Source: Clostridiales bacterium | GTDB taxonomy: Bacteria; Bacillota; Clostridia; Lachnospirales; WQUN01 | Assembly: GCA_031269465.1 (NCBI GenBank) | Contig: JAISZB010000335.1 | Location: forward strand, 1 to 64,000 | Length of the DNA: 64,000 bases | Direction: 5' to 3' | In this document: positions 7,857 through 58,221 of the stretch, piece after piece | How the letters are laid out: each line of letters starts with the position of its first letter | Numbering within the stretch: the first letter of the stretch is position 1 | The notes under the pieces: generated by a model | What the model was told of the DNA's origin: nothing | Database searches by the model: none | Seen by the model: the letters and a program-made list of their open reading frames with translations, nothing else | Position numbers and translations under genes: made by a program

Positions 7857-7968
7857 CTGCCTTTTTTGGAGCTTGATATTATGCCGCGAGTGCGAACTGC
7901 CGATATCAATCGCACCACTCAGTGGACAGTCAAGCTCCAAAAAAGGAACATTTGATGAAAAGCGGTAT
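7857..7968. repeat. Family A palindrome, copy next to B
   Basis: The inner arms CTTTTTTGGAGCTTGA and CAAGCTCCAAAAAAGG enclose a second palindromic core (GCCGATATC and GCACCACTCAGTGG), and the element ends in GATGAAAAGCGGTATA. It lies between convergent genes. Confidence 0.8.
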
Positions 7969-7974
7969 ATTTAT

Positions 7975-15833: not shown

Positions 15834-15969
15834 TATACTGCTTTTCATATAAAATTACCTTTTTTGGAGCTTGATTATACAGCGAGTGCAAAATGCCGAT
15901 TTCGGCATTTCGCACCATTCAATGGATAATCAAGCTCCAAAAAAGGAGCATTTGATGAAAATCAGTATA
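15834..15969. repeat. Family A element, best full-length copy
   Basis: Outer ends TATACTGCTTTTCAT and ATGAAAATCAGTATA, inner arms TTTTTTGGAGCTTGATTAT with exact complement, and core TGCAAAATGCCGA/TCGGCATTTCGCA. It shows the B-free form of the left end (TTTTCATATAAA directly followed by ATTACC). It lies between convergent genes. Confidence 0.85.
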
Positions 15970-24563: not shown

Positions 24564-24605
24564 AAAGCAATATGCCAAGCCCTGCGGGCATTTTCGTTCT
24601 AAGTT

Positions 24606-24745
24606 CCTATCTTGGGAGCTTGACTGTGCTGCGAGCGCGATTGATATCGTCATTTCGCGCCTTGAAAGCGCTGAATTCATGCATTTAAGAATACCAGAGC
24701 CAGCGGACAGTCAAGCTCAGAAATATACCGATTTTCATCAAATGT
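24606..24745. repeat. Family A element with enlarged interior
   Basis: GGGAGCTTGACTGT opens and ACAGTCAAGCTC closes; the interior is longer than usual (about 85 bases). The outer end GATTTTCATCAAATG is shared with the next copy. Confidence 0.65.
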
Positions 24746-40014: not shown

Positions 40015-43000
40015 ATGATTAGCGCATCCCAATTAGAGCGCACGATTAAAAAGATGGAGCGATTCGCTTCAACGCTGGAGGATCGCCTGTTTATAAAAGT
40101 CGATGAAGTATCCATGTCAAGGCTTGACGTTTCAGAAAGAAGGCACGCCATGCCGAATCCGGATCAAGCGCAGCCTTTCGCCCCAGGCTGCGCCTGGGGC
40201 GAGGAGCGCGCCTGGCTCTGGCTTTTTGGGGAATACACCCCGCCTGAAACCCTGGCTGGACGCACGCTCTACATTTATCCAAAGACGACTTGCAATGAAG
40301 GCATGCTCTGGGTTGATGGAGAGCCATTTGGAATCTTCACCTCCAAAAAGCCCCGCGACGCAAGCCGAGGCAATCATTACTGCGATCTTCTGTCCATAAA
40401 GGCGGAACCCGGCAAATCGCTCGCCATTGCCCTGGAATACTACGCGGGGCATCCTAATCCCGGAACCATGCCGCTAGTAACTGAGCATCCCAATTACAAA
40501 TACCTGATAGGCCCTACTGACATATGTTTAAAAGACGAGCTGATAAGCGATTTTCTCTTTGACTTGCTCACAGTTTGCGGTTTAATCGACGCTTTGGATG
40601 AAAGAAGCTTCCGCAGGGCTGACGCTATAAACGCCTTGTCTCAAGTCCATTCCATTGTCCTCGTTGATCCTGACAATGCGGACGAGGAAGAATTCAGGCA
40701 ATCCTTAAAAATCGCTCATCCAGCGCTTAAAGAAATCCTTTCGTCAAAGAATTCCGCAAGCGCTCCGTTTGCCGGACTCATCGGCCACAGCCACATGGAT
40801 ACGGCATGGCTTTGGCCGGTTGAGGAAACTATAAAAAAATGCGCTAGAACCTATGCAAACCAGCTGGCTCTCATGGAGCAATACCCTGAGTATCTCTTCA
40901 TCCAAAGCTCCGCTTTCCATAGCGACGCAATGAGGCTGAATTATCCGGGCCTGTTTGAAAGGATTAAAGAAAAGGTTCTCGAAGGCCGCTATGAGCCAAA
41001 CGGCGGCATATGGGTGGAGTGCGACTGCAACCTGGTTTCAGGCGAATCGCTGGCAAGGCAGTTCATCTGGGGGCAGCGGTTCACTCGCAGGCATTTCTCT
41101 TATACCGCAGACGTATTCTGGCTTCCGGATACATTCGGGTACAGCGCCGCCATACCGCAGATAATGAAGCTGGCAGGGGTGAAATATTTCCTTACCACCA
41201 AAATGAGCTGGAACGACACCAATAGATTTCCATACGACACCTTTGTCTGGCAGGGAATTGACTCAACCAAAGTACTTGCGCATCTTAACCAGTCCCATCT
41301 TTGGCCCACCCCGCAAAACCTCCAGGAATACGTTGTAAGCGGCGAGATTTCGGGAAGCTGCGTAAGAGAAAAAACCGTCTCTAGGCAGAGGCTGCTTTCC
41401 TTCGGATACGGCGACGGAGGCGGCGGCCCCCAATTTCAAATGCTCGAAATGGCAAGGCGCCTGGAAGACTTGGATGGGCTTCCAAGAAGCGGGTACCGGA
41501 CAGCCAGCGAATTCATGCAGGAGCTGGAAACGCAGCTTAAAGAGCCTTCTATCTATTTCGGAGAGCTGTACCTTGAGCTTCATAGGGGAACTTTGACTAA
41601 CCAGCACCAGATAAAAAGGAACAACAGGCTCTCGGAAATAGCCCTTCATGACCTGGAATACGCCGCAGTCAGAGATGCCGCCTCTAAAGGCAAGGCATGC
41701 AGCTCCGACAACATCCGCGATTTGACTCAAATCCTTCTTGTAAACCAGTTCCACGACATTTTGCCGGGAACTTGCATTGAGGAAGTCCATGAACTCTCGC
41801 TGAAAGAGACATCAGCGCTTATTATCGAGGCCCGCGAAAGGACAAGGGCATTGCTTGAAGGAGAAAATCACGGACTTAGCCTTACCAATACGCTTTCTTT
41901 CTCAAGATCGGATCCTGTCTATCTTCCGCTTGGAGGCTATAACTTGCCCGAAGGCGCCCTCGCTCAGGAGACGGATACACTTTTCGGCCCCAAGCTGGCA
42001 GTTGGCGGGCTGAAGCTTGAACCGCTCTCAAGCTTGATTATAGGAGAAGGAAATACCGCAATATCTCCGCAAAACCCGTTTAAATATGAAAACAGCGTTC
42101 TAGAGACTCCTTTCGCTACTATAACATTTGATGAGAATGGATTCATTTCCTCATTTCTGGACAAAACTTCATACAACAGGGAGCTTAGGGGAGAAGGATT
42201 CCCGCTCGGAACATACCTCGTCGCTGAGGATGTGCCGCTCATATACGACAACTGGGATATAGACGCCGACATAGAACGAAAGCTTGAGCCTAAAGCCAAG
42301 CTTATAAGCCGCGAAACCGTAAGTTGCGGGGCTGTCGAATTCAGAATCAGAAGTTTGTATCAGCTGACCCCCGAAAGTTCGCTGCAACAGGACTTTATAG
42401 CGTATGCGGACAGCCCTCTAGTGCGCTTTGAACTCATGATTGACTGGCAGAATCACCACAGGCTTCTGAAAGTTGCTTTCGACACTTCAATAAAGGCCCA
42501 AGACGCTCGGTTTGAGATCCAATTCGGACACATAAAAAGAGCTACCCATCGAAATACTGACATAGAAAAAGCCAAGTTTGAAGTATGCAACCACAAGTAC
42601 ACCGATCTGTCAGAATCTCAGTACGGCGCAGCAATCCTTAACGATTGCAAGTACGGCATATCCGTGCGGGACGGACAAATGCGCCTTACGCTTCACAAAG
42701 GAGGCAATCGTCCCGATATAAAAGGCGATTTGGGAAGACATTTCATGAGCTTCGGATTCCTGCCGCATAGCTGCGGCTTCTCATCCGCATCCGTAGTGCA
42801 TGCCGCATATGAGTTTAACTATCCCGTTCTTTGCCATAAGGGCGGATGCGCTTCGCCTCCTCTTGCCGATGCGGGAAACCCCGCCGTGATAATCGAGTCC
42901 GTAAAGCCCCCAGAAGACAGCGCAAATGCCTTTATCCTCAGAATGTATGAATCAGAAGGCTCAACAGCTCATGCCGAAATAAACGTTTTCTGCGCAAAAA

Positions 43001-43113
43001 GAATCACGCCCGTAAATCTTTTGGAGGAGCCTTGCGGCGAATCGATATGCGGCGACATTGCTGTTTTAAATTTCAGGCCCTTTGAGATTAAAACTCTCTT
43101 AGTAGATTATTGA
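40015..43113 (+). CDS. GH38 alpha-mannosidase
   Basis: Cytosolic (no signal peptide) glycoside hydrolase of about 1032 residues. The GH38 N-terminal catalytic domain has GHSHMDTAWLWP near residue 258 with zinc-binding His and Asp, FWLPDTFGYSAAIPQI near residue 370 with the nucleophile Asp, and NQFHDILPGTCI near residue 580 with another zinc His; a GH38 middle domain and beta-sandwich C-terminus follow. It would cleave alpha-mannosides imported by the preceding transporter. Start: ATG at 40015 with GAGGA five bases upstream; an ATG four codons earlier is possible. Confidence 0.93.
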   Translation: MISASQLERTIKKMERFASTLEDRLFIKVDEVSMSRLDVSERRHAMPNPDQAQPFAPGCAWGEERAWLWLFGEYTPPETLAGRTLYIYPKTTCNEGMLWVDGEPFGIFTSKKPRDASRGNHYCDLLSIKAEPGKSLAIALEYYAGHPNPGTMPLVTEHPNYKYLIGPTDICLKDELISDFLFDLLTVCGLIDALDERSFRRADAINALSQVHSIVLVDPDNADEEEFRQSLKIAHPALKEILSSKNSASAPFAGLIGHSHMDTAWLWPVEETIKKCARTYANQLALMEQYPEYLFIQSSAFHSDAMRLNYPGLFERIKEKVLEGRYEPNGGIWVECDCNLVSGESLARQFIWGQRFTRRHFSYTADVFWLPDTFGYSAAIPQIMKLAGVKYFLTTKMSWNDTNRFPYDTFVWQGIDSTKVLAHLNQSHLWPTPQNLQEYVVSGEISGSCVREKTVSRQRLLSFGYGDGGGGPQFQMLEMARRLEDLDGLPRSGYRTASEFMQELETQLKEPSIYFGELYLELHRGTLTNQHQIKRNNRLSEIALHDLEYAAVRDAASKGKACSSDNIRDLTQILLVNQFHDILPGTCIEEVHELSLKETSALIIEARERTRALLEGENHGLSLTNTLSFSRSDPVYLPLGGYNLPEGALAQETDTLFGPKLAVGGLKLEPLSSLIIGEGNTAISPQNPFKYENSVLETPFATITFDENGFISSFLDKTSYNRELRGEGFPLGTYLVAEDVPLIYDNWDIDADIERKLEPKAKLISRETVSCGAVEFRIRSLYQLTPESSLQQDFIAYADSPLVRFELMIDWQNHHRLLKVAFDTSIKAQDARFEIQFGHIKRATHRNTDIEKAKFEVCNHKYTDLSESQYGAAILNDCKYGISVRDGQMRLTLHKGGNRPDIKGDLGRHFMSFGFLPHSCGFSSASVVHAAYEFNYPVLCHKGGCASPPLADAGNPAVIIESVKPPEDSANAFILRMYESEGSTAHAEINVFCAKRITPVNLLEEPCGESICGDIAVLNFRPFEIKTLLVDY

Positions 43114-43513
43114 TATTCTATACTGATTGCAACCAAATGTTTAAATGACCCCGAGAGATCCTGAGCATCCGTCCCGGCCTGAGATGAAGTCCACATGTGG
43201 TGTTACATAAAATGTAGGAATAACTAAAATATGCTGAATATGGCGAAAACGTATAAGCTAAAACAATGTCGCTGATGGCCTTTTAAAGCCTGTGTATTGC
43301 TATAACTGCCTACTATTTTCATATGCGCCCATGCAATCAGTATACTTGACCGGGCCGCATACTTTAAGCTATAATAGTGCAACCGGAGTTTAATTATCCA
43401 CTTTCAAGGTGCGAAATGCCTGTATCAATCGCACTCGCTGTACAGTCAAGCTAAAATAGGAATTTCATATGCAAATCAGTATATAGGATCCGAGGAAGCA
43501 GGTCAGTCAATCA
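43114..43513. other. Gap after the mannosidase gene
   Basis: No gene; holds a family A element (43381-43484) and AT-rich sequence. It ends where the IS200/IS605-type sequences begin. Confidence 0.5.
43381..43484. repeat. Family A element, partly degraded
   Basis: GGAGTTTAATTATCCA opens, GTGCGAAATGCC is the core, ACAGTCAAGCTAAAATAGG and ATGCAAATCAGTATA close. Left and right inner arms pair imperfectly. Confidence 0.65.
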
Positions 43514-43534
43514 CCCCATAGCTAAAGCAAGGGG
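43514..43534. mobile_element. IS200/IS605-type terminal hairpin
   Basis: CCCCATAGCTAAAGCAAGGGG forms a stem (CCCC/GGGG and GCT/AGC) of the kind found at the ends of IS200/IS605-superfamily elements. It is followed by GCTTGC and two imperfect copies of AGTCTTGATTGACTA (43541-43577). It matches in layout the hairpins at 44103 and 47015 and marks an element end. Confidence 0.6.
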
Positions 43535-43619
43535 CTTGCAAAAGTCTTGATTGACTAGCCTAAGTCTTAATTGACTACGCTGTCCGAAAATACATAGGCG
43601 GATCGAGAGAGCAAGGCCG

Positions 43620-43805
43620 CACACATTAGCGGGTGTAAACTCCGTCCAGTTAAGGCACAGCCATGCCGCTGGCAGCGAGCCGCGGCAATGTTCTGGCAGT
43701 GGGGCATCCTAAGCGTCGGCAACTGAGCGCTAGGCCTGAAAGCTGTCAGGTTCCGAAATTATCCGCGGCTGGGCGCCGACGGCAGCGACCAGCCGGAAGG
43801 CAATA
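43620..43805 (+). ncRNA. Candidate omega RNA (HEARO) of an IscB element
   Basis: A GC-rich block with several hairpins directly upstream of an iscB 3' remnant, where omega RNAs lie. Stems seen: TGCCGC with GCGGCA (about 43662-43685), CCTGA-AAGCTG-TCAGG (about 43736-43751) and GGCTGG with CCAGCC near its end. The segments GGCAGTGGGGCAT, CGGCAACTGAGCGC and CAGCGACCAGCCGG look like conserved HEARO patches as I remember them; no alignment was possible. The guide would be at its 5' end, near 43600-43640. As the iscB coding body is deleted, this RNA is probably non-functional in cis. Confidence 0.45.
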
Positions 43806-44137
43806 TGCCGCCGCTGCGCGATTCAATCTATATGCAGAAAGCGGCATGAAGGCGCGGCCATCAACAAAGGCGGAAAGAGGAGGCTGAATCAAGCTCCCAA
43901 TTATGTGCATGGCTATCAGCTGTTTAACAGGGCATGCATTCCGGATGGACGAAAAGGATTCATTTTCGCGAGGCGGCTAAGCGGAAGCTTCGGCGTGCGG
44001 ACGCTGGACGGAACGAAGCTGTCTGAGAGAATCAGCCGCAAAGAACTCAAGCCTTTGGAGAGGCGCAAAACAATATTAACAGAAAGGAGCATGCGGCTTC
44101 CTCCTCCTGCCTATAGGCAGGGGTACCCGCCGCATAA
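43806..44137 (+). pseudogene. IscB remnant 1 (C-terminal end only)
   Basis: Encodes a fragment matching the end of the second IscB remnant: IYMQKAA, INKGGKRRLNQAP, YVHGYQLF, KGFIFARRLSGSFGVRTLDG and a final LTERSMRLPP. Everything upstream (RuvC parts, bridge helix, HNH) is missing, and a deletion with a stop interrupts its beginning. The sequence ends at CCGCCGCATA, the point where the two copies stop matching, so this is the element's right boundary. An open frame runs from here into the next gene only by chance. Confidence 0.7.
44103..44124. mobile_element. Right-end hairpin of IscB element 1
   Basis: CCTGCCTATAGGCAGG (44106-44121) is a perfect palindrome inside the longer CTCC...GGGG stem, corresponding in position to the hairpin of the second copy. 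Confidence 0.65.
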
Positions 44138-44144
44138 CAACCTG

Positions 44145-45767
44145 ATGGGAAGTTATTTGAATCCAGGGGCTGATTGGTTCAAATTGTCACTAGCAAGCGA
44201 GATTTATGTCGATAAAACCAATTTGATATCATATACCAACAAGGTATTCTGTTCTCAGCAGAGATTCATTTGCATAAGCCGCCCTCGACGTTTCGGAAAA
44301 TCCATGGCTGTTGGCATGCTTGCGGCCTATTACAGCCGCGATATAGAGTCAAAAGAATTATTCGAGCCATTTAAAATATCAAAAAGCCCATCGTTTGAAT
44401 CTCATCTGAATGAATGCAATGTCATTTATTTGGATATGCAGGAGTTTTTGACCAAAGCGGGAGTTGCTTTGGCAGACGTGAGCCAATCCTCTAAAATCAA
44501 AGATCCTGCCTTGGTCAAAGCAATGATAAGATTGATAGAAGAGTTGGTTTTGGATGAACTGATTGATGAATATCCAGATTTGAAGTATAAAAACGCCAAA
44601 TCTCTTAATGAAACTCTGAAGGACATCTTCAACTGCACAAGAATTCCGTTTGTATTCCTGGTTGATGAATGGGACTGCATATTCCGGACATCTGACATAG
44701 GCGACGACGGACAGAAGGATTATTTGGACTATCTTCGCCTGCTGTTTAAGGACAGGGCATATGTGGGCTTGGCTTATATGACAGGGATTCTGCCTATCAA
44801 GAAGTATGGCCGGCACTCCGCGCTCAACATGTTCAAGGAGTTCTCCATGACTGCCCCTCTGAATCTGGCGGAATACGTGGGCTTCACCGATTCTGAAGTG
44901 AGGTCTCTGTGCGAAAGGCATGGAATGAGCTTCGAAGAGATCGAGAAATGGTACGACGGATACAGCTTTCCAAGCGCTGAGCATGTCTACAACCCTTTAG
45001 CGGTCGTAAGCGCATTGACGGACAAGTGTCTGATGAATTACTGGAGCGCGACGGAAACCTTTGAAGCTTTGAAAGATTATATAGTGCTAGGCTTCGACGG
45101 CCTAAAAGACACTGTCTGCCGTCTGATGGGCGGAGGATCCGCCAAGATCAGGATCGGAGGCTTTCAGAATGACATGTCCACATTCTCTTCCGCTGACGAT
45201 GTCCTAACCCTTCTGATGCACCTCGGCTATCTCAATTACAATTCTTCAACTAAGGAAGCCTCCATACCGAACGATGAGATCATGTCAGAATTCGTGACAT
45301 CAATCCGAAGCGCTGGATGGAGCGGCGTAATCAAAGCGGTCGAAGCATCGCAGGCGCTTCTGAAGGCTACATGGAGGAAAGATGCTGCGACGGTTGCCAA
45401 CGCTGTCGGCGCAGTCCACGCTGAAACGTCCATCCTGACGTACAATGACGAAAACGCATTGTCCTACGTAGTATCGCTCGCGTACTACGCCGCTCGTGAG
45501 TATTACACCATAACGCGGGAAATGCCTGCCGGCGAAGGGTTTGCAGATCTGGTGCTCATACCATCGCCTGCGCATCAAGACAAGCCGGCGATGATCATTG
45601 AACTCAAATGGAATAAGACCGCGCAGACTGCGATCGAGCGGATAAAGGAAAAAAACTACCCCCAGGCATTGAAGGCGTACGCAGGCAATCTGCTGATTGT
45701 GGGGATCAACTACGATAAGGTTGCAAAAATCCATTCCTGCGTAATTGAGGAATTACAGGCTGAATGA
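44145..45767 (+). CDS. AAA-ATPase-like / PD-(D/E)XK nuclease fusion (DUF1703 type)
   Basis: 540-residue protein of a family widespread in anaerobes and often multi-copy. It starts with the conserved ADWFKLSLASEIYVDKTNLI; the AAA-like domain carries the P-loop variant SRPRRFGKSM near residue 47 and Walker B-like FVFLVDEWD near residue 168; the C-terminal PD-(D/E)XK nuclease domain has GFADLVLIP and MIIELKWNK. Biological role unknown; a mobile or defence-related job is often suspected. The ATG at 44145 is chosen because the sequence before it belongs to an IscB element whose boundary lies eight bases upstream. No good ribosome binding site remains, so expression may be impaired or depend on the element. 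Confidence 0.85.
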   Translation: MGSYLNPGADWFKLSLASEIYVDKTNLISYTNKVFCSQQRFICISRPRRFGKSMAVGMLAAYYSRDIESKELFEPFKISKSPSFESHLNECNVIYLDMQEFLTKAGVALADVSQSSKIKDPALVKAMIRLIEELVLDELIDEYPDLKYKNAKSLNETLKDIFNCTRIPFVFLVDEWDCIFRTSDIGDDGQKDYLDYLRLLFKDRAYVGLAYMTGILPIKKYGRHSALNMFKEFSMTAPLNLAEYVGFTDSEVRSLCERHGMSFEEIEKWYDGYSFPSAEHVYNPLAVVSALTDKCLMNYWSATETFEALKDYIVLGFDGLKDTVCRLMGGGSAKIRIGGFQNDMSTFSSADDVLTLLMHLGYLNYNSSTKEASIPNDEIMSEFVTSIRSAGWSGVIKAVEASQALLKATWRKDAATVANAVGAVHAETSILTYNDENALSYVVSLAYYAAREYYTITREMPAGEGFADLVLIPSPAHQDKPAMIIELKWNKTAQTAIERIKEKNYPQALKAYAGNLLIVGINYDKVAKIHSCVIEELQAE

Positions 45768-45936
45768 ATAAAGCGCCAGCCTGCCGCAGGGATTGATGGC
45801 AATAGAGTATTGCGCGGAAGTTCGATGAAATGACTCTTGGGCAGGTGGTTCCGGTACAGAAGAAGCTTCTTTAGTCTTTGAGCCTTTCCTCTGCGCTGCT
45901 CGGCTTTTCCGCACGCTTTTATCAAAAACGCTGCCT

Positions 45937-47049
45937 TTGCATGAGAAAGAAGAGTTGTACGCCGCTGAGGCAGAGCTGAGGACCGGCATAGCGGACTTGC
46001 TCTCAACGAGAAGAGTTTTCAGGAGCGCAAGGCGCAATAGGAAGACAAGATGCCGCAAACCTCGTTTCAACAATCGCATCCTCTCGAAGCAAAAGGGCTG
46101 GCTTGCCCATCGATTGAAAATAAGATTCAGACCCGCATTAAGACTGTATCCAACGCACATAAAATCTTGCCTATAACTAAAACAATAGTTGAGGTTGCCT
46201 CATTTGACATGCAGAAAATCAAAAATCCTGATATGTCAGAAAAGGACTGTCAAAACGGAGAGCAACTTGGTTTCTGGAATGTTCGGGAATCTGTTTTATT
46301 CCGCGACGGACATGTGTGCCAGGGGAGAAAGAATTGCAAGAATCCCATTCTGAATGTCCATCATATAGAAACCCGCAGAGTAGGATGCGACGCTCCGAAC
46401 AACCTTACAGCTCTGTGCACGGATTGCCACAGCGACTATCGGGATGCCGCTTTCATTGGCATCGGGGCGCCGCTTTCGGCATCACGCAGGAAAGTTGAAG
46501 CTAAATTTGAGGAGATGGCGATCTTTCAGAAACGCCGCGTTCATGGAGATTATGAGGCGGGCGTTCTGCAGCAGGCTGAAGGAAGAATATCCGAATGCGG
46601 GCACGGCATACGGCTATACCGCAATGAACGCGAGAATCAGAAATGGCTTGGAAAAAGATCATGCGGCAGGCGCGAGGCGTATTAGCGGAAACCCAAAATC
46701 AATTCCGCTGGAAGCAATCTATATGCAGAAGGCGGCAAGGAAGCGCAACCGCCAGCTTCATAAGGCGACTATCAACAAAGGTGGAAAGAGGAGGCTGAAC
46801 CAAGCGCTGAAATATGTACATGGCTATCAGCTGTTCGGCAGGGTTCAAATGCCGGACGGGCAAAAGGGATTCATTTTCGGGCGGCGCTCAAGCGGAGGCT
46901 TCGGCGTTCGCACGCTGGACGGAGCAAAGCCGCCTGCGGGAACCGGCTGCAAAAAGCCCGAGCCCTTTAGAAAAGCGCAAGGCAATATTGACGGAAAGGG
47001 GCGTGTGGCTTCCTCCCCATGCCTAAAGGCAGGGGTATCCGCCGCATAG
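45937..47049 (+). pseudogene. IscB remnant 2 (RNA-guided HNH/RuvC nuclease, dead)
   Basis: Reconstructing across frames gives a bridge helix (RNRKTRCRKPRFNNR), KGWLA / PSIENKIQTRIK, VEVASFDMQKIKNPD (RuvC-II, Glu), GEQLGFWNVRESVLFRDGHVC, an HNH core LNVHHIETRR...NLTALCTDCH, then RISGNPKSIP and the tail YVHGYQLFGR. The N-terminal RuvC-I with its Asp is absent; frameshifts lie near 46107 and near 46440-46500; and the RuvC-III H-x-x-D-A site reads DHAAGA, with Gly for the catalytic Asp. It cannot make an active nuclease. No omega RNA is recognisable just upstream. Confidence 0.8.
47015..47035. mobile_element. Right-end hairpin of IscB element 2
   Basis: CCCCATGCCTAAAGGCAGGGG is an IS200/IS605-style hairpin (CCCC/GGGG and GCCT/AGGC). 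Similarity with copy 1 stops just after CCGCCGCATA at about 47047. Confidence 0.7.
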
Positions 47050-47135
47050 TAACTTTGATAATGGATCTCTTATAATGGATCTCTTTATAAATTTACTTAT
47101 AGCAACAGATATTTTGAATAAATTTAAAAAACTGC

Positions 47136-47164
47136 TTGCAAACAATCTCGTTCCATGCTATAAT
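47136..47164 (+). promoter_or_regulatory. Promoter of the tRNA-Arg unit
   Basis: TTGCAA (47136-47141), a 17-base spacer and TATAAT (47159-47164), about 140 bases before the tRNA. Confidence 0.65.
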
Positions 47165-47235
47165 TTTTGAGGTTGAAAAATCCAATGTAAAGACTTCATT
47201 GTACTCCTTTATGAGCTGGTTCCTATATGTTTCAT

Positions 47236-47305
47236 ACGCTTGCAGCTCAGCTGGATAGAACTTCCGATTGCGGAACAAGCACACCATCAAATTCAATTCC
47301 ACCAT
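47236..47305 (+). pseudogene. Decayed tRNA-like sequence
   Basis: GCAGCTCAGCTGGATAGAAC copies a tRNA D-arm region, and the stretch ends in CCACCA directly before tRNA-Arg. The anticodon stem (TTCCG/CGGAA) has only a four-base loop and the T-arm is unrecognisable, so it is not a working tRNA. Confidence 0.4.
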
Positions 47306-47379
47306 GTACCCGTAGCTCAGCTGGATAGAGCGTCTGGCTACGGACCAGAAGGTCGCGTGTTCGAATCATGTCGGGTACA
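47306..47379 (+). tRNA. tRNA-Arg (anticodon ACG)
   Basis: Full cloverleaf: acceptor GTACCCG/CGGGTAC, D-stem GCTC/GAGC, anticodon stem TCTGG/CCAGA with loop CTACGGA (ACG), T-stem GCGTG/CATGT with loop TTCGAAT, discriminator A. No CCA is encoded. It is the only intact tRNA in the window and sits among mobile-element debris. Confidence 0.95.
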
Positions 47380-47492
47380 TTGAAGCCCTGGAAATAAGCA
47401 GTTTTTAGGGACAAGCTCTAACAATTTTTAAGTCAGAAAAATTAATTGGAAACAAATTTGCAGTCAAAATGTAGTCAGCCAGTACAGCGAAA

Positions 47493-47526
47493 AAGAGCGG
47501 ACAATCCAATGGGATTGCCCGCTCTT
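47493..47526 (-). terminator. Terminator for minus-strand transcription
   Basis: AAGAGCGG-A-CAATCC pairs with GGATTG-C-CCGCTCTT. On the minus strand the hairpin is followed by TTTTTCGC, so it would end transcripts of the istA remnant. Confidence 0.75.
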
Positions 47527-57640: not shown

Positions 57641-58221
57641 GCCGCCACCTCGCGTCGCGCTTTCCCGCCACTGCATGTGTTCGGCTGAGCTTCAGCAGCG
57701 TTGCAGCCGGGCGCTTTAAAAAGCTCAGATTTTCAATGCGTCGAGCTTTACCGCAAACATGCTGATAAGCCAATTCTCCGATTTCAGGCTTTAATTATCC
57801 GCTTTCTCATAGAGTAATGCAACCTGAAATCTAAACTATGCCTACTAGCAGTCAAATGCTCTTAAATTAAGCAAGGCCCCATTTACACCCTTCAAAATCA
57901 AGCTCAAAGAGATGCGGCTTCATATGCAAATCGGCATATTCCGCACCTCGTCCTCATTTGCGCAAATCCTCGCTTGAAATATCAAAGATTCCTAAATTCC
58001 AAGCTATTCGCTTTATTTATGCTGATTTTCATTTAAAATTACCTCTTTTGTCTCTTGATTATACAGCGAGTGGATTGATATCGGCATTTCGCACCGCTCA
58101 ATCGAGTCAAGGGACAAAAAAGGAGCTTTGATGAAAATCGGCATGCGTATAAGCTCTTAATGGCTCCGTTCCGTTGATGCTCCGGCCTCAAAAACGCTGC
58201 ATATGCGCATTCAATATTATA
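57641..58221. other. Gap upstream of the AraC regulator with family A elements
   Basis: Contains a weak A-type hairpin (GATTTCAGG at 57780 with CCTGAAATC at 57823), further A fragments to about 57945 and a good copy at 58019-58145. No gene. Confidence 0.5.
58019..58145. repeat. Family A element with altered, paired arms
   Basis: TTTTGTCTCTTGATTATAC opens and TCAAGGGACAAAA closes: GGAGC is replaced by GTCTC, matched by GGGAC opposite, with one T/G position that would be a G-U pair in RNA. Outer ends GCTGATTTTCAT and ATGAAAATCGGCAT are intact. Confidence 0.8.

Follow-up and report, generated by a model that had tools for sequence, protein, structure and literature searches.

A decayed IscB element whose omega-RNA gene was probably invaded by a group II intron

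Results

Anatomy of the locus

The window analysed here is the whole 64,000-nt stretch of DNA (G000:C230:1-64000), taken from a genome of 7.7 Mb in 391 contigs. At the locus under study the first part of a HEARO/omega-RNA gene runs directly into the 5' part of a group II intron, which is joined in turn to the C-terminal end of an iscB gene (Table 1). An Rfam scan of positions 43000-47500 gives a match to RF02033 (HEARO) at 43506-43617, with 57.2 bits against a cut-off of 83, and a match to RF02005 (group-II-D1D4-6) at 43637-43829, with 51.9 bits against a cut-off of 49. The HEARO match lacks 112 inner model positions and is thus neither full-length nor above the cut-off. The intron block, on the other hand, is recognised by the domain I-IV covariance model, for which sister copies reach 121 bits.

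Table 1. Features of the locus, in window coordinates
Feature	Position	Strand	Basis or remark
Former guide position (presumed)	43490..43505	+	16 nt directly 5' of omega-RNA start
5' exon, first ~95 nt of HEARO/omega-RNA gene	43506..43600	+	RF02033 match; aligns with intron-free omega-RNA genes elsewhere in the genome
Group II intron 5' part, domain I and following	43601..43811	+	RF02005 match; similarity to sister copies
EBS1 position, apical loop of domain I hairpin	43786..43789	+	Alignment column test; fold of sister copies
Deletion junction, intron joined to iscB	43812..43819	.	Comparison with intron copies L031, L032 and IscB copies L002, L056
iscB C-terminal remnant	43820..44118	+	BLAST to iscB 3' ends in the same genome, 70-83% identity; compare intact C244 protein
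Right end of element (..GTACCCGCCGCATAACAACCTG)	44119..44144	+	Right-end alignment, ~28 copies; abuts an ATG
Flanking host gene, AAA-ATPase_like + PDDEXK_9 protein, outside element	44145..45767	+	Pfam PF09820 6e-21, PF08011 4e-9

The original prediction had described a structured RNA lying directly against the tail of an IscB whose nuclease body is deleted, and this much holds: a structured RNA block lies at about 43620-43830, the adjoining sequence matches the C-terminal part of many genomic IscB copies by BLAST, and only that C-terminal end is left in the window iscB copy, where no RuvC or HNH nuclease domain is found. The RNA itself proves to be something else. Both segments that had been read as HEARO-like (GGCAGTGGGGCAT and CGGCAACTGAGCGC) fall within the RF02005 match rather than in HEARO, and the supposed omega RNA is sequence of group II intron domain I. 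The HEARO model does find a match, as anticipated, but upstream of the interval where it had been sought, so that the guide, expected at the 5' end of the block at 43620, would instead precede 43506. Similarly, the right end of the element is retained, but only the 5' half of the omega RNA remains of the guide-RNA part.

The sequence before GTCAATCACC differs in all listed copies of the element, and the 16 nt at this position in the window we take, from known IscB biology, to be the guide. The 5' exon ends in ATAGGCG, with GGCG at 43597-43600 as IBS1. The intron fragment comprises the 5' ~210 nt, begins with GATCG where other copies have GAGCG, is 72-75% identical to intron copies in contigs C198, C388, C261 and others, and breaks off at ~43811; neither domains V and VI with a defined 3' end nor an intron-encoded RT/maturase is present in this truncated copy. 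Missing at the junction are the 3' half of the intron, the 3' half of the omega RNA and most of iscB, the remnant of which carries an in-frame stop at 43847-43849, followed by a frameshift. In the window the element has collapsed to a relic, in which the omega-RNA 5' half, the intron 5' part and the iscB tail have been fused by deletion.

Could such a relic still provide a solo omega RNA, one that survived deletion of its nuclease and is used in trans by an IscB encoded elsewhere? Full-length IscB proteins with RuvC and HNH motifs are encoded in at least contigs C244 and C353, beside intact omega RNAs, and these proteins, in line with the original prediction, could act in trans; a HEARO match is also present, upstream of the block first named. 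That block, however, is intron, the window keeps no more than the first ~95 of the ~220 nt of omega RNA, and the missing 3' half includes the partner strand of the pseudoknot (CATTGGCG). The intron cannot be spliced out, since its 3' half, with domains V and VI, is lost. With the omega-RNA 3' half and pseudoknot partner gone and the intron unspliceable, this locus gives no support for a usable solo omega RNA, which we regard as very improbable.

The natural start of the flanking AAA-ATPase/PD-(D/E)XK gene is probably the ATG at 44145. Its open reading frame (43905-45767) is open upstream through the iscB tail, and automatic annotation may add 80 residues of IscB origin to the protein. A second iscB relic, at 45943-47049, consists of RRXRR and HNH parts, frameshifted, and then a C-terminal tail and right end; no HEARO match was found beside it. 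A dispersed repeat of ~90 nt (..GCGAAATGCC..GTACAGTCAAGC..CAAATCAGTATA), often in inverted pairs, lies at 43394-43483 and in about 10 further places in the window (for example 15834-15938, 24601-24668, 58018-58095 and 7890-7970). It may be very abundant in the genome, where a search gave 48 matches listed and 1903 first-look candidates.

IscB elements in the genome

The genome contains 115 HEARO matches (61 over the cut-off), 157 IscB-profile matches, mostly fragments, 24 group-II-D1D4-6 matches, 23 domain V matches and nine Y1 transposase matches, the copy counts resting on individual stretches taken from the genome. Genomes of the same family are mostly 2-3.5 Mb in size and almost all are without HEARO, in contrast to the 115 matches in this one of 7.7 Mb. 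ATGA or GTGA follows the insertion point of HEARO elements, whose guide is drawn from the upstream sequence. This rule agrees with an alignment of the right ends of ~28 element copies in the genome, nearly all of which are followed by (G)ATGA/ATGG.

A single insertion nucleotide in the omega-RNA gene

About 20 omega-RNA genes in the genome are interrupted by an intron at one and the same nucleotide, ATATAGG[TA/CA/CG]^CTCCGG. The junction of HEARO 5' part and intron occurs ~20 times, always after ATAGG plus two nucleotides. Intron-free and interrupted genes align identically up to ATATATAGG, beyond which the former read [TA/CA/CG]CTCCGGAGCG and the latter [TA/CA/CG]GAGCGACCGAGC; whether or not an intron is present, the site is preceded by TA, CA or CG. 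Carriers of the intron occur among three exon alleles and in two omega-RNA types that have diverged from each other. Relatives of the intron elsewhere in the phylum begin at the same point, with GTGCG, GAGCG or AAGCG, and lie outside HEARO, which confirms the 5' boundary.

At the 3' side, the junctions in contigs C207, C351 and C125 read CTCGAC^CTCCGG and are followed by the 3' half of the omega RNA and then iscB. Domain V matches lie beside them, with 46.3 bits in both C207 and C351 and a weak 31.4 bits in C125. The last of these contigs holds a whole unit, comprising 5' exon, an 1881-nt intron with an RT open reading frame, 3' exon and iscB; the intron encodes an open 433-residue RT/maturase frame (TIGR04416, E 8e-44), and the intron RT/maturase of C198 matches the same profile with E 3e-58. 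When the two C125 exons are joined and compared with an intron-free omega RNA (L009), 201 of the 219 aligned positions match, with no insertion or deletion at the junction; judged by this alignment, the joined exons would make an ordinary omega RNA. We considered whether RF02005 might be a mis-named omega-RNA family, and rejected this, since RT open reading frames, domain V and true intron ends accompany it.

In C125 the branch-point A is changed to G (CCTGCTCGAC, compared with CCTACTCGAC in C207 and C351) and the RT motif reads CAGD in place of YADD; the RT of C198 likewise has altered catalytic motifs, DAG and CADD. From its sequence, the C125 unit, the only fully assembled one that bears the intron, looks dead. 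The intron begins with GAGCG, compared with the usual GUGYG. Many intron copies run off contig ends, and younger, more similar copies may therefore have been lost in assembly. Adenine-directed mutagenesis as the source of the RT motif changes was dropped as an idea, the changes being both A>G and T>C.

Site recognition by EBS1-IBS1 pairing

A second group of introns in the genome occupies other sites, with exon ends CTCT. Among 502 windows of the intron alignment, complementarity to the final four bases of the exon is seen in both groups at a single window of 4 nt. In the omega-RNA-site introns 11 of the 12 copies pair (UGCC or CGCC with GGCA, GGUA or GGCG), as do all three of the other-site introns (GGAG or AGAG with CUCU); when the exon ends were relabelled at random 600 times, no such pairing column arose. 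This EBS1 window lies in the apical loop of a hairpin when sister copies are folded. The pairing spans 4 nt; full pairing of 5 and 6 nt across both intron groups was not found. The single copy that fails to pair, in a family that otherwise does, is that of the window, with CGAC where its sisters have CGCC or UGCC, a failure in keeping with its decay.

These data bear on the idea that an ordinary group II intron lands beside stem-loops without sequence recognition, the omega-RNA site being just one such structure. Related introns that occupy the other motif (..CTCT^GAGCG) in this genome, where the surroundings differ and one copy has an inverted repeat on its flanks, would fit such behaviour. 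The 4-nt EBS1 loop, however, differs between the two groups in step with the exon end, which points to sequence recognition, and makes landing on structure alone quite unlikely in our judgement.

The CTCT-site introns L038, L041 and L046 have a common upstream sequence of ~110 nt (TTGATTTAAGC...GAGAACTTTTAACTCT), which suggests that a repeated element may be the homing target of these introns, too.

Repeated insertion

The 13 intron-bearing members of a tree of 69 5' exons require 10 state changes, at least seven of which are forced by supported branches, although the exons are short (about 100 columns) and many forks are unresolved. The AU test rejects a single clade of intron-bearing exons (p=2.5e-5), and within one set of identical 5' exons an intron-bearing and an intron-free copy occur together. 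Exon and intron similarities are also at odds: L037 and L042 have introns that are 96.9% identical and exons that are 84.2% identical, whereas for L033 and L042 the exons are 94.1% identical and the introns 81.7%.

An alternative is that the whole is a composite transposon, in which one ancestral insertion was copied by transposition of the IscB element and the fixed site reflects inheritance, not repeated retrohoming. In its favour, a single insertion nucleotide is common to all copies, and some exon pairs are nearly identical (99% for L031/L033). Against it stand the scatter of intron-bearing exons among intron-free ones, the occurrence of the intron with three alleles of the exon and in both diverged types of omega RNA, the discordance between exon and intron similarities, and the variation of EBS1 with exon allele; we therefore consider a composite transposon unlikely. 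The exon tree and the discordance fit repeated homing to one site, as far as can be judged from the sequences. Gene conversion among 100 or more repeats could have contributed, and could mimic some of the independent insertions.

Discussion

What, then, is the origin of the locus? We think it highly probable that it is a decayed IscB (OMEGA) element whose omega-RNA gene was invaded by a group II intron. The intact order would have been guide, omega-RNA 5' half, group II intron with its RT/maturase gene, omega-RNA 3' half, iscB and right end. Through EBS1-IBS1 pairing the intron RNA would recognise an exon ending in ATAGG(CG/CA/TA) and retrohome into omega-RNA genes at one nucleotide; splicing would rejoin the two halves to give an ordinary omega RNA, and the intron could thereby hide in a high-copy target without destroying it. 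In the window copy a later deletion would have joined the 5' part of the intron to the tail of iscB, and what remains is a relic without function. The sequences themselves show the anatomy, the exact site, the repeated insertion, the match of EBS1 with IBS1 and the seamless junction of the exons; retrohoming, splicing in the past and use of the spliced RNA by IscB are steps that we infer from these comparisons.

More tentatively, the intron may represent a group II lineage specialised on omega-RNA genes, in which splicing, helped by the maturase, would decide whether a functional guide RNA for IscB is made; it could then act as an intron-controlled switch or simply be a hidden parasite. If the intron splices, production of the guide RNA would depend on intron activity. 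Two RNA-guided mobile systems are nested in this one genome, an intron that locates DNA through RNA pairing lying within the guide-RNA gene of a Cas9-like nuclease. A genome with 115 HEARO matches also offers a natural laboratory for the multiplication and death of IscB elements. For annotation, a caution follows: a stretch next to the tail of an iscB gene may look like omega RNA and yet be intron.

Comparison with known systems

The combination of HEARO and intron was found in this genome only; family-wide and phylum-sample DNA searches did not find it in other genomes, and our literature search found no paper that describes an IscB omega RNA containing a group II intron. Scans of genome contigs and viral contigs with the junction pattern gave 6 matches, none of them HEARO or group II by Rfam, which we attribute to chance. 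Group-II-D1D4-6 introns of the same phylum (L241, L245, L248 and others) belong to the same class, with 65-167 bits and a similar 5' sequence, but occupy other sites, none of the seven examined being in HEARO.

The host element has the features of HEARO/omega RNA with IscB (OMEGA), namely an omega RNA 5' of iscB, a variable upstream guide and insertion before ATGA; compared with intact OMEGA elements, the window copy keeps only the RNA 5' half and the protein tail. The nearest precedents for the composite are RmInt1 in ISRm2011-2 and the IStrons (PMC4238363, PMC4227781). RmInt1 of Sinorhizobium meliloti is likewise a group II intron that resides in a mobile element, the insertion sequence ISRm2011-2, and its splicing efficiency has been proposed to limit the spread of the host element (PMC4238363). 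Here, in contrast, the intron targets a gene for the guide RNA of an RNA-guided nuclease element, and ~20 of roughly 115 such genes are occupied in one genome. IStrons also combine a self-splicing intron with an element of the IS200/IS605 world: they consist of a group I intron with IS200/IS605 or IS607, and splicing renders insertion of the whole IS harmless to the host gene (PMC4227781). The present case is a group II intron within the omega-RNA gene, not a group I intron fused to an IS; it interrupts the guide RNA, which its splicing would restore.
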